A stretch of DNA of 64,000 bases from an uncultured Roseobacter sp. (GTDB lineage Bacteria; Pseudomonadota; Alphaproteobacteria; Rhodobacterales; Rhodobacteraceae), in contig NZ_CANLQB010000004.1 in assembly GCF_947493125.1 (NCBI RefSeq), positions 372,001 to 436,000 on the forward strand. Direction: 5' to 3'. Under the pieces are notes generated by a model that had not been told where the DNA came from, ran no database searches, and was given only the letters and a program-made list of their open reading frames with translations. Below are positions 15,472 through 38,380 of this stretch, in pieces (positions within the stretch are counted from its first letter, which is position 1; each line of letters begins with the position of its first letter). Position numbers and translations under genes: made by a program.

Positions 15472-16060
15472 GTGAGCCTGGCGGCCTGACACGCCGCAAC
15501 GGCCGAGCGCATCGCGGCGGTGCGACGCTGAGCTCAAAAAGCGACAGGCGGGTTTGGCGCCCGCGTGCGCTGCCGCGTAACCGCGTGACGACTGACGACC
15601 GCAGGGTCCGGCATCGCACAACGCGGATCTCTCGCAAAAGGACAACTGAAAAGGCGTTTCGGGTGCGTGCGCGCGCCCCTGGCTCCAAGGGGACATGCAC
15701 CCTTTCGGGACGATGCAGTTGTTGCAATCAGGCCGTCAGACCATTGAACGCGAAGGTCGAATCTCGAAAGCTCTTGTCGTGTCAGCGCACCCAATGTCAC
15801 TCGACGCATTGAGGCAAAGCGGCTGTGATAGTTTGCTGCAAGGAGTGACGGACCCTAGAGGAGTCGAAACTCTGCCTTAGCAGCTGGTCAAATGACCTCT
15901 CCGAATTGCGCGATAGGCATCTGAAAAAGCTGGATCCTTCAAATCACCGCTCCGAAGTCTCTATCCGAGAACACGCTCTGATTTCCGCCCGCTTGCTTGC
16001 GGGGGGCTTGCGCGAAATCCGGCTTTCGAACGACCGGAGCATGAGCCCACTGACGAAATG
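15472..16060. other. Intergenic stretch containing the left island junction
   Basis: No gene is seen between the EAL-protein stop and the integrase remnant. The notable item is a decayed tRNA 3' end at 15849-15873. Sequence to its left should be the original chromosomal flank of the tRNA-Arg gene and sequence to its right the island, if the island reading is right. Confidence 0.5.
15849..15873 (-). repeat. Decayed tRNA-Arg 3' end, candidate attachment-site repeat (attL)
   Basis: Twenty-five bases match the 3' end of the tRNA-Arg(CCG) gene at 38307-38331 in the same orientation: fourteen identical bases (CGGACCCTAGAGGA), one mismatch, TCGAA, one mismatch, CTCT. This covers the acceptor stem and most of the T arm. 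The CCA end is mutated. A fragment of a tRNA next to an integrase is the classic scar of site-specific integration. Confidence 0.7.
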
Positions 16061-16070
16061 ATTTGTCGGG

Positions 16071-17343
16071 TCCGTGGCCCCTAAAAGGAAAGGTCAGGTT
16101 GTCTGCGACGATGAACAGCCCGGCTTTGGTTTTCGCGTCTACGCCTCAGGAAAACGAAGCTACCTTATCCAGTACCGGGCTAAAGGTCGTTCGCGGCGCT
16201 GCACAATCGGACTCCAGGGGGTTTGGACACCCGAGACCGCTCATCGTGAAGCTAAGACGTTGCCTGGCCAGATCGCTCGGGGCGAAGATCCTGCTGCCGA
16301 ACGGGAAGAAGAGCGCCGTGCAGTGACCGTTGGGGAGCTCTGTGAGCAATAGATCGCTGACGTGGGCGCGGGCCTCGTTCTCGGGAAAGGCGGTCGCCAA
16401 AAAAAGACCGCGACCGACGTCGGTCGCATCCGCCGGCACATCATCCCTTTGCTAGGTACGCCGAGGATAAGGGACATCGCCAAGCCGGACATGAGCAACC
16501 CGATGAAGGACATCATCGCCGGGAAGACGCGCGTCGTCATGAAGACGGCAAAGCAATCGTGCGCGGCGGGCGTAGCGCTCCCATCCGCACCATGGGCCTC
16601 CTCGGCGGCATCTTCACCTACGCAATCGAGGCCGGGATCATCAATCAGAACCCGACCCAAGGCCTCAAGACGCCGCGATACAAGATGCGGGACCGACGAC
16701 TGAGTGAAGCCAGTGTCGGACGCTGGGTAGACTTTTGAAAGACGTGCGCGTGATAACCACGACGGCATTCACGCCGAGATCCGTCGTCTCATCGCCCTGA
16801 CCGGCTGCAGGCGCGGCGAGATCATCGGTTTACGCTGGAGCGCGGTCGACATCGAGAACTGTTGTCTTCGGTTGAAAGACCGCAAGGGAGGGCATCAGCG
16901 CGCGCAGTCGCCGTCCGGTCATCGACTATCTCGAGGCCGCGCGCTTTAAGCGGGATAGGACGTTCGTCTTTCCCGGCCAGGGTGAGGACAACGCCGTCGG
17001 AAATGTCCCCTAGAGCTGGAAGAAGCTACTCGCGGAAACACCGCTTTGGGATGTGACGCCACACGTCCTGCGGCACAGCTTCGCTAGCATTGCCGCCGTT
17101 CTTGGGTTTACCGACATAACCATCGCCGCGCTCATCGGACACGCCGAAGGATCGGTCACAAGCAAATATGTCCACACGCTGGATTTGACACTCTTCATTG
17201 CCGCAGACGCCGTTTCAAGTTGCGTGACGGCGCTTCTTGAAGGGGTTGAGTTCAGGCGGAACACCCAGACGCTTGACCGGCAAACACAAAGGGGCGCGAT
17301 TGACGATATACTGATCGAAGCGAGGCCACGGAAGTTGGCCTAG
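16071..17343 (+). pseudogene. Degenerate tyrosine site-specific integrase (DUF4102-type)
   Basis: A phage/island integrase of the arm-binding DUF4102 family broken into at least five pieces. The N-terminal arm domain is at 16074-16337 (QPGFGFRVYASGKRSYLIQYR, RRCTIGLQGVWTPETAHREAK). It is followed by a stop, then by the core-binding part at 16362-16550 (LGKGGRQKKTATDVGRIRRHI), a frameshift to MGLLGGIFTYAIEAGII around 16590, another to LIALTGCRRGEIIGLRWSAVDIE near 16790, more shifts, an in-frame stop at 17011, and the catalytic end at 17020-17343 (TPHVLRHSFASIA, ALIGHAEGSVTSKYVHTLD, with HxxR and the Tyr nucleophile). It lies 200 bases inside the left tRNA fragment, so it is likely the enzyme that inserted the island and later decayed. 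Confidence 0.88.
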
Positions 17344-17397
17344 TCTCGCTGATGTCGTCGTCTACGAATGCTCCAGAGCAGCGTACTCGGCCCCAAA

Positions 17398-17486
17398 GCA
17401 GACATCCAACTCGCTATCTCGATACTGCGATTGAAGCCCGCCGTTCCGCCATTCTCCGCGGGCGCAAACGCAATTGATTGCTGAAC
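17398..17486. repeat. Diverged 89-bp repeat, copy A
   Basis: This segment aligns without gaps to 26456-26544 (copy B) in the same orientation with about 16 mismatches by hand count. Both copies begin GCAGACATCCAACTC and end CTGAAC. It is non-coding as far as can be seen. It lies between the integrase remnant and the ArsR gene. Confidence 0.6.
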
Positions 17487-17549
17487 CCTACCGTGTGGGA
17501 CTTGGTTGCCGGTCGCCCAATGAGGGCTTCGAAGCAACCGAACGATGTT

Positions 17550-18233
17550 TCAGCCCACCAAAAACAGTCTCGTAAACTCTTTGGCCCCATTCCGCGAGAA
17601 CGCAACGACCCGCGTTTTCTGATCGCGCTTGGCCCAGGACAGTTCTTCGAAGCGAGTGAGGAACGCGCGGCCAAGGCTGCCTGCCAGATGTGACCTGCGC
17701 TCGCTCCAGTCCAGGCATTCGCGGCAAAGCGGGGCACGCGCCTTGCGGAGCGCATCCAGGTCGATCTCGAAACCGGTCGCGAAGGCCGCGCCCTCGTCCG
17801 TCAAAGCAAGGTCTCCGCCATCCAACATGATGTGCCCATTGTCCATCATACTGTCGAACATCTGTGTTCCCATGTCGCCGGCCAGATGGTTGTAGCAGAC
17901 ACGCGCCTTCCGCAGCTCCGCGTCTTTCGGCCCGGTGCGTTTGCGCACATGGCCCGATCCTGCCGCCAGCCCCATCAGGCCCTCCAGGACATGTGCCACC
18001 TCGTCACCTGCAAGCGAGAAGTACTTGTGTCGTCCCTGCTTGCGCGGCCGCAGCAGTCCACCCTCGTCGAGCTTGGACAGATGCGAGCTGGCCGTCTGGA
18101 TCGTCACTCCGGCCTCTTCTGCCAACTCGCTGACTGTCAGCGCCTTTCCACTCATCAGCGCGGTCAGCATGTTGGCGCGAGCAGGATCACCGATCAGCGC
18201 GGCGACATGGGCGATGTCTGGACCTTCCTTCAT
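17550..18233 (-). CDS. ArsR/SmtB-family winged-helix regulator
   Basis: A 227-residue transcriptional regulator. The N-terminal third is an ArsR-type winged helix: IAHVAALIGDPARANMLTALMSGKALTVSELAEEAGVTIQTASSHLSKLDEGGLLRPRKQGRHKYFSL. The C-terminal half contains a conserved-looking cysteine-bearing segment (ARVCYNHLAGDMG, RAPLCRECLDWSERR) that may sense metal or redox state, as in the longer ArsR proteins of Rhodobacteraceae. It is divergent from the NIPSNAP gene with a 73-base gap and is probably its regulator. The last 15 residues run on normally to a stop. Confidence 0.85.
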   Translation of the reverse strand: MKEGPDIAHVAALIGDPARANMLTALMSGKALTVSELAEEAGVTIQTASSHLSKLDEGGLLRPRKQGRHKYFSLAGDEVAHVLEGLMGLAAGSGHVRKRTGPKDAELRKARVCYNHLAGDMGTQMFDSMMDNGHIMLDGGDLALTDEGAAFATGFEIDLDALRKARAPLCRECLDWSERRSHLAGSLGRAFLTRFEELSWAKRDQKTRVVAFSRNGAKEFTRLFLVG

Positions 18234-37500: not shown

Positions 37501-37504
37501 TAGC

Positions 37505-38025
37505 CCAGCCTGGAACAAGGTCCGCGTCGTCGGTCAGAAACGCCCGTTGGCGCCGAAATACGTCTGGGCGATCCGAGTACGATCCGAATTGGCCCAAAAC
37601 CATCGCGATCTCGCGCCGTTCAACACGGCAATCGACAGCAAGCCTTGCGGCTGTGATCTTGTGAATGTGGTCAAATGTGATGGCATCGGGCGAGGTCAAA
37701 GAGCGGGCGTCGGTCTTGCAAAGCAAGACACAGAAACCTGTGCGGTTTGAAATATCCAAAGGGACGCGTGCCTCGGTCCACAAGTGGATGGAAGATGACT
37801 TGATGTTCGGCTCGGAGTACTTTTGCCAGGTCGGTTTGATGAGCGACTGCGGATCTCGACCCGCCAGTCTGCACGACTTTTCCGAGATTGCATGACGCCG
37901 ATTGGCTTGGACGCAAGCGCAGACGGCACGCATTCGATGCGTCGGACCAAAGTCACCCAGATCCACGAGAAAACGCGAAACCTGTGCACAGTGCAGCTAC
38001 GCGCCATTCGCGTCCGACGTGTTGA
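37505..38025 (+). pseudogene. Degenerate tyrosine recombinase, second type
   Basis: Plus-strand fragments in shifting frames match a short tyrosine recombinase common in proteobacteria. From 37505 they read VRVVGQKRPLAPKYVWAIRVRSELAQNHRDLA and FNTAIDSK, then after a shift VMASGEVKERASVLQSKTQKPVRFEISKGTRASVHKWMEDDLMFGSEY, then after another ISTRQSARLFRDCMTPIGLDASADGTHSMRRTKVTQIHEKT. The HSMRR box is the catalytic HxxR motif. The final part with the Tyr nucleophile (normally LLGHTKMDSTVRYLG) is lost. This enzyme is unlike the integrase at the left end, so the island was hit by at least two mobile elements. Confidence 0.75.
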
Positions 38026-38197
38026 ACACAAACTGCTGAACAGGACCATCATCCACTGAAAAGCCCAAACCGCTTTGCAGGCGAAGCCTGTGTGGCAGCG
38101 AGATCAGAAGATCGGGGTTTTCCGGCTGCGGTTCCACGAATACAGAGATCAGCCGTTGCTCGGTGATCCGGCGATATCCGAACGCTCTAGTCAGCAA
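37997..38197 (-). pseudogene. Fragment resembling invasion-associated locus B (IalB) protein
   Basis: A minus-strand frame reads RAFGYRRITEQRLISVFVE followed by ENPDLLISLPHRLRLQSGL and GFSVDDG. This resembles the core of IalB-type secreted proteins (pattern LLILLPLGLxLxxGxxxxVDDG). There is no signal peptide and the frame stops at the edge of the recombinase remnant, so it is at best a fragment cut by rearrangement. Resemblance is from memory of the family and is weak. Confidence 0.3.
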
Positions 38198-38303
38198 CAG
38201 CGTGCCAGTAAGCCGTCACGCGCAATCCGCTCATACGAACCTCATGCGCAAGCACCGACCCGGCGGAGGCACTCAATCTAAAGTATGGATTTATAATACT
38301 AAA

Positions 38304-38331
38304 TGGCGGACCCTAGAGGATTCGAACCTCT
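38304..38331 (-). repeat. Attachment-site repeat within tRNA-Arg (attR)
   Basis: The 3' acceptor stem and T arm of the tRNA repeat at 15849-15873 with two mismatches in 25 bases. The intact copy is at this end, as expected when an element supplies the 3' end of the tRNA it enters. Confidence 0.7.
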
Positions 38332-38380
38332 GGCCTCTGCCTTCGGAGGGCAGCGCTCTATCCAGCTGAGCTAAGGGTCC
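38304..38380 (-). tRNA. tRNA-Arg (anticodon CCG)
   Basis: The minus strand folds as a complete tRNA: acceptor GGACCCT pairing with AGGGTCC, D-arm TAGCTCAGCTGGATAGAGC, anticodon stem CTGCC/GGCAG around loop CTCCGAA (anticodon CCG), T-arm AGAGG-TTCGAAT-CCTCT, discriminator G and encoded CCA. It lies just downstream of sufS. Its 3' end faces the island, and a decayed copy of that end is found at 15849. Confidence 0.97.

Follow-up and report, generated by a model that had tools for sequence, protein, structure and literature searches.

Among the tRNA-gene islands catalogued by Islander (PMC4383910), anticodon-centred transfer RNA (tRNA) sites form a large class of 2083 islands, and the account describes a regenerated tRNA at one end, a displaced 3' fragment at the other and a tyrosine integrase. 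In the tRNA-dependent lysogeny described for actinobacteriophages (PMC10865867), either a long core (33-51 bp) rebuilds the host tRNA or a short core (8-17 bp) is accompanied by a phage-borne cognate tRNA, and the authors of that study note that tRNA-dependent integration beyond actinophages needs further investigation. Here we describe a locus of this general kind in a stretch of 64,000 nucleotides (nt) from an uncultured Roseobacter sp. (assembly GCF_947493125.1, contig NZ_CANLQB010000004.1, positions 372,001 to 436,000), hereafter the window, whose own numbering is used throughout. Positions 15846-38303 are very probably an old, immobilised tRNA-Arg(CCG) integrative island of 22.5 kb that is unable to excise by means of its own enzyme. 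The evidence consists of a remnant of the attachment (att) site, an integrase family with a fixed target, the target tRNA itself, the native junction preserved in a relative, the composition of the DNA and a hut gene block whose nearest counterpart is in another genus.

The island resembles those of Islander (PMC4383910) in all three of the described features, and differs from that description in the decay of its integrase and of one att copy, and in having a further non-native block between it and the native flank. Tycheposons (PMC10872708) are likewise tRNA-bordered islands with a tyrosine recombinase and metabolic cargo, and are likened to the present island on these features alone. With the actinophages (PMC10865867), the family of the island's integrase shares related enzymes with rebuild or replace modes and arm-type sites flanking the core; the copy in the window follows the intact-tRNA mode. 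Unlike the phages described in that study, the carriers are islands of Alphaproteobacteria, including one with conjugation genes; their target is tRNA-Arg(CCG), and the system is known from sequence alone. It is probable that this integrase family, borne by alphaproteobacterial islands of which at least one has conjugation genes, practises tRNA-dependent integration: most of the members examined appear to cut tRNA-Arg(CCG) in the anticodon loop and to bring a complete tRNA-Arg(CCG) of their own, placed some 137 nt from the 5' half that remains, and a minority, including the relic in the window, leave an intact host-type tRNA. No islands or conjugative elements with a replacement tRNA were found in the open-access literature searched. 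Since tRNA islands with anticodon-centred sites are already known, the integrase family is the more novel part of these results.

The target gene is an intact native tRNA-Arg(CCG) at 38304-38380 on the minus strand, the sole tRNA called in the window by ARAGORN; it adjoins the native sufS flank directly. A search of the genome with this tRNA-Arg and its surroundings gave no further match above 76% identity. At the opposite end, 22,458 nt away and in the same orientation, positions 15846-15874 align without gaps to 38304-38332 with three mismatches (26/29). Comparison with intact relatives extends this fragment to 15846-15883 (plus strand), a decayed integrase-side att copy that retains 38 nt of a 45-nt tRNA-Arg(CCG) 3' segment reaching from the anticodon loop to the CCA end; 7 nt are missing between two CTCTG repeats, as aligned by eye to the intact relatives. 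The sequence that follows (ctggtcaaatg...) is the integrase-side arm seen at other loci. Beyond it lies a tyrosine integrase pseudogene (16008-17340, plus strand), spread over two frames with internal stops, of which separate pieces match Arm-DNA-bind_3 and Phage_integrase in Pfam and a third is without a match. The att-integrase junction has an intact homolog in the same genus, in Roseobacter sp. H9, where the locus (L051) is 100% identical to L042 of genome G003. Positions 15844-17384 align at 80% over 1.6 kb to the intact att-integrase unit of genome G003 (L042:10025-11618), in which a 45-nt tRNA copy with 93% identity is followed by an open integrase gene of 453 amino acids (L042:10216-11574). 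This alignment crosses from the tRNA copy to the integrase, and the two therefore belong together. At the protein level, matches were obtained in 288 of the 295 genomes of the family, mostly to distant tyrosine recombinases, and full-length relatives with at least 80% identity in 5 of the 294 other genomes.

A second, short tyrosine recombinase remnant is located at about 37390-37998 (plus strand), and its intact homolog (L035:11025-11717) matches Phage_integrase. The first-pass annotation of this DNA had already reported an intact tRNA with its 3' end facing left, an integrase remnant inside the left copy and a recombinase remnant just inside the right end, all of which are borne out. The 25-base, two-mismatch fragment that it had placed at 15849-15873 is real, and is better given as the 29 nt described above. 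Its view of an old integration fixed by decay of the integrase also holds, with the addition that one att copy has decayed as well.

In the history proposed for this island, a tyrosine integrase would have recombined the attachment site of the element (attP) with tRNA-Arg(CCG) near the anticodon loop, so that the integrase end (15846) kept the displaced 3' part of the host tRNA and the other end (38304) had an intact tRNA. Stop codons and a frame change would then have accumulated in the integrase, and 7 nt would have been lost from the att copy beside it; with both changes, the island would no longer be excisable by its own enzyme. A single integration may have brought the whole of 15.8-38.3 kb. 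Later, the island would have served as a cargo region for separate modules (regulator-hydrolase, ABC unit and hut-TRAP) with repeats at their borders.

The target preference of the integrase was examined by scanning named genomes with the intact integrase of G003, which provided 48 loci, mostly from Alphaproteobacteria. Seven loci were set aside because of a partial match or a contig start too near (L052, L063, L092, L093, L096, L097 and L098) and L067, which has 224 nt upstream, was included manually, leaving 41 eligible loci. With a cut-off of at least 36/45 identities, the 45-nt tRNA-Arg 3' segment is present in 40 of the 41 (37-44/45 identities), always ending 144-147 nt before integrase residue 1; the sole eligible locus without this core is L090. 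As a control, 2 of 849 random windows from the same loci score at least 20, the mean being 8.3. ARAGORN found no tRNA-Arg in any of the 48 loci, in stretches of up to 10 kb on each side of the integrase. A full tRNA-Arg was sought in 37 host genomes, in sets of 15 and 22, and is on the same contig as the integrase-side copy in 11 hosts (8/15 and 3/22), in every case with the order and orientation seen in the window; the two are 34-90 kb apart in the ten of these eleven hosts for which distances were computed. Two integrase-side copies are present in G003 (L042 on C11 and L043 on C37), with a core of the element-borne acceptor type and an outer flank like an element end, which is the state expected if a second element had inserted into the tRNA of the first.

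The opposite, right ends of these elements fall into two types. Altogether 38 right ends from 34 hosts were examined; G357, G365 and G372 had no full tRNA listed, and G351 and G364 have two full tRNAs each. ARAGORN calls tRNA-Arg(CCG) in all 22 right-end loci submitted. In the split type, paired GCTTACG repeats, a second core and the remaining 5' half of a tRNA lie beyond a full tRNA-Arg on its host side: the anticodon loop is where the host gene has been cut, and the full tRNA is that of the element. This type accounts for 25/38 right ends; at each of these the repeats are present, the second core stands 125-138 nt beyond the tRNA and 33 nt or more of the 5' half remain. At a further three, the repeats and second core are accompanied by 10-16 nt of the 5' half (G371, at a contig end, one end in G353 and that of G356 on C16), so that an element-type tRNA is present at 28 of the 38. 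At two of these, L185 (G356:C16) and L165 (G353:C6), almost no 5' half follows the element tRNA, repeats and second core, perhaps through insertion at a secondary site or in tandem. An intact tRNA without repeats or second core is found at eight right ends (G346, G350, G368, G370, G354, G351 and two of G364), and two are ambiguous (another end in G351, and G356 on C6). Between the integrase-side copy and the 3' part of the full tRNA, 0-8 of 45 positions differ at the 28 ends with repeats and second core, with 0 observed once; at the eight intact ends the differences number 0, 0, 0, 1, 0, 4, 3 and 5. The window has no second tRNA and no repeats or second core after its tRNA, which is followed by native 5' flank; it thus belongs with the intact-tRNA group. 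Within the genus, split forms with a native 5' half and a replacement tRNA-Arg are also found beside sufS in G014 (L006:3980-4301) and G003 (L011:921-1176), and the site has therefore been hit repeatedly. Genome G006 has an intact native tRNA-Arg at sufS; in addition, an 18.7-kb contig of this genome (L146, C33:10500-12300) bears a split-type right end and a second tRNA-Arg, and may represent a second site, a plasmid or an assembly effect.

The split-type element of Jannaschia donghaensis (G337; 44 kb, Pfam scan of 13 of the 28 open reading frames (ORFs) of the stretch) encodes a DUF3363 protein, which we take to be relaxase-like, a VirD4/TraG-type coupling protein, a CagE/TrbE/VirB-type ATPase, AbiE genes and an N6-methylase. 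Comparison of ten of its ORFs with PHROGs gave a primase and one protein matching transglycosylase, endolysin and lytic tail families, and no head, portal or terminase family, barring an internal virion protein that shares the same lytic domain. Ten of 23 ORFs were scanned in the 34-kb intact-tRNA element of G346, and include genes for a DruA protein, a DEAD/MZB helicase and an NB-ARC protein. No conserved gene backbone was present downstream of the integrase among 39 loci, 35 of them with more than 1 kb of downstream sequence. An ABC-type cluster recurs at 8 loci, mostly on the chromosomal side; the other recurrent groups are each limited to 4-6 loci, and those of the element side include HipA, AbiE and an N6-methylase. 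Relaxase, coupling protein and type IV secretion system genes are absent among the island proteins of the window that were scanned, and the island is at most the remnant of a conjugative element of the kind found in G337. PADLOC, applied to ten window proteins, returned generic matches only (a helix-turn-helix regulator and an ABC ATPase) and no defence system.

The boundaries of the foreign DNA were defined by comparison with G006, in which the homolog of window positions 1-2812 and the sequence from 38304 onward are separated by a spacer of 109 bp only. G006 joins the 2812 homolog to the tRNA, and native DNA in the window therefore ends at 2812. The native left neighbourhood (1-2812), collinear with G006, contains a Cache/PAS/HisKA sensor gene (1-2039, cut by the window edge) and a GAF gene (2203-2739), both on the minus strand, and a further 20 kb to the left of the window is also collinear. 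The native right flank (38381-64000) starts with sufS (38438-39658, minus strand). Twenty loci beside sufS were compared, of which contig ends leave less than 2 kb in L013 and L019 and about 4 kb in L006. In G002 and G015 the same two left-flank genes remain the closest native ones, and about 4 kb of other DNA separates them from the tRNA; G007 and G009 retain the DNA beyond these two genes. The flanks of 15846-38303 were not found joined in any of the 18 other genomes of the genus, with contigs ending near the tRNA in G001, G013 and G014. In G007 (L016:1398-1474) the strand of the tRNA-Arg near sufS, taken relative to sufS, is opposite to that at the other compared loci with this tRNA, which suggests a local inversion or replacement.

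Accordingly, the non-native region is 2813-38303, a composite of 35.5 kb made up of the 22.5-kb island and a preceding block, termed segment A (2813-15845). Earlier, the first-pass annotation had recognised the island and taken the DNA left of 15849 for a native housekeeping flank to which the tRNA-Arg would be joined in strains lacking it. The tRNA-Arg island at 15846-38303 is genuine; the supposed flank is not native, the empty site predicted from it fails, and non-native DNA extends left to 2813. For this genome, the size and make-up of the foreign region are thus corrected. In the proposed profile comparison, the island is off the native tetranucleotide profile, with z scores of up to 7.6 inside against -1.6 to 0.9 on the right flank (itself included in the reference), and the hut part is near-native.

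Three other explanations were weighed. That the left fragment is a decayed full-length duplicate of the tRNA, or a chance match, is very improbable; the annotation had itself called the duplicate less likely. Just 29 nt align without a gap, as either would allow; yet a 26-nt part of the fragment, with up to three mismatches allowed, had 0 matches in 100 dinucleotide shuffles, and the recurrence of the same segment at fixed spacing in 40 of the 41 eligible integrase loci contradicts both. The duplicate was rejected because homology to the intact elements continues through the junction to the attP arm and on to the integrase, and not into a tRNA 5' half: the fragment stops where intact elements change to the integrase arm. 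An unlikely alternative, with rather more in its favour, is that a split-type element cut the native tRNA and supplied its own tRNA-Arg, and that homologous recombination between the copies later removed the spacer and left one intact tRNA. The prevalence of split right ends in hosts of the integrase family, the split forms of G014 and G003 beside sufS and the 3' flank of the window tRNA would all accord with this. The flank in question, an AT-rich stretch at 38282-38303, is similar to the sequence beside the element-borne tRNAs of intact elements (shuffle p 0.0008), and as a mark of the right end of the element it is supportive, weak evidence, the motif failing in three of seven intact ends tested (G368, G350 and G364). 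Against such a repair, the window tRNA is identical at 77/77 positions to the native gene of G006, on both halves. Moreover, tRNA-Arg(CCG) occurs in two acceptor-stem forms, GGACCC and GCACCC (plus strand of the window), and all 18 element-borne tRNAs compared at split ends have GCACCC and not GGACCC, so that a simple crossover in the 5' half common to both forms would leave the stem mismatched. The tRNA was more plausibly rebuilt by a long shared core, in the intact-tRNA mode, than repaired later.

The remaining alternative, which is doubtful yet the most credible of the three, is that 2813-38303 was one 35.5-kb insertion, or tandem tRNA-Arg islands with 15846 as an internal junction. It would agree with the end of native DNA at 2812 in the G006 alignment, the deviation of both halves from the native tetranucleotide profile and the repeated use of the site in the genus. 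It is opposed by the difference between a GC-rich segment A and a GC-poor island, by the location of the FecR-CHASE2 gene pair of segment A elsewhere in 11 of 18 relatives, and by the left end of segment A, near 2813, where a search for remnants of a tRNA gave nothing above background. Segment A may instead be a further acquisition or a relocated block. Several observations weigh against the reading of 15846-38303 as an island brought by one integration and bounded as described. The 109-bp spacer of G006, sought in the window, gave background scores only, and the insertion is thus not clean; no genome was found with segment A and without the island. The contents of the island are modular, several events being possible, and its hut part has z scores of only 0.9-2.6. 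The 3'-flank motif is loose, with leave-one-out scores of -13 to 13 among 30 split flanks, and is also present at three related loci not assigned to this element (L017, L020 and L024). Finally, G346 alone among the eight intact ends shares a contig with the integrase-side copy, the other pairings being inferred.

If the integrase family does practise tRNA-dependent integration, a cell losing the element's tRNA copy would lose tRNA-Arg(CCG), and carriage of a whole tRNA may spare the element the need for matching host acceptor and T stems, widening the range of hosts that can be entered. The family provides a comparative set (28 element-type right ends and 8 without, of 38) for studying the switch between rebuilding and replacing, and allows the hold of an element on its host via an imported tRNA to be tested.

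The cargo of the island is arranged in modules. One comprises the hut genes (26717-34031), with hutC and hutF on the minus strand and an amidohydrolase in the hutI position, hutH, an FGase in the hutG position and hutU on the plus strand, followed by the TRAP transporter genes dctP, dctQ and dctM (34055-37273, plus strand); the labels hutI and hutG rest on Pfam family and operon position. The block 26717-37279 is collinear with G069, from another genus of the same family, at 78-81% nucleotide identity and with about 0.65 kb extra in G069. HutH is 85% identical to that of G069 and no more than 72% identical to any other within the genus, where 12 of the 18 other genomes have it; it gives a single match in the present genome. 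These results indicate that the only hut operon of this genome came from outside the genus. A further module (20775-26109, minus strand) encodes an ABC-2 permease, an ABC ATPase and two large ORFs without a Pfam or NCBIfam match. Interspersed repeats are found at the module borders, at 17392-17486 with a second copy at 26450-26544 (81%), and at 19924-20338 (about 400 nt, also in several genomes of the genus and elsewhere in G000); all three have further matches in the genus.

Segment A is an accessory block containing genes for a LysR regulator, a BON/MscS channel, a FecR-domain protein and a CHASE2-GGDEF-EAL protein, among others. Full-length homologs of the CHASE2 gene (67-75%) are present away from sufS in 11 of the 18 other genus genomes, with one of 43% in G005; they are 190 kb to 2 Mb from sufS on the five contigs holding both, and on different contigs in six of the 11. 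The FecR-CHASE2 pair of G006 adjoins DNA whose own-genome counterpart is on another contig, C14. The pair may tend to sit at tRNA hotspots. Another tRNA (Met or Phe) was seen within about 0.4 kb after the CHASE2 gene in three relatives (L027:11832-11908, L028:7570-7646 and L034:7776-7850). Copies similar to the second recombinase occur near the CHASE2 loci of three relatives. The first cargo module of the island (17550-19916) consists of an ArsR-like regulator (minus strand), a small ORF (18307-18639) and an alpha/beta-hydrolase fused to an ABM domain (18636-19916), and G006 and G012 also have it (75-77%). Ten other relatives lack the hydrolase part between the small ORF and the ABM part, and the alpha/beta-hydrolase (18616-19572) looks like an insertion that created the fusion gene.

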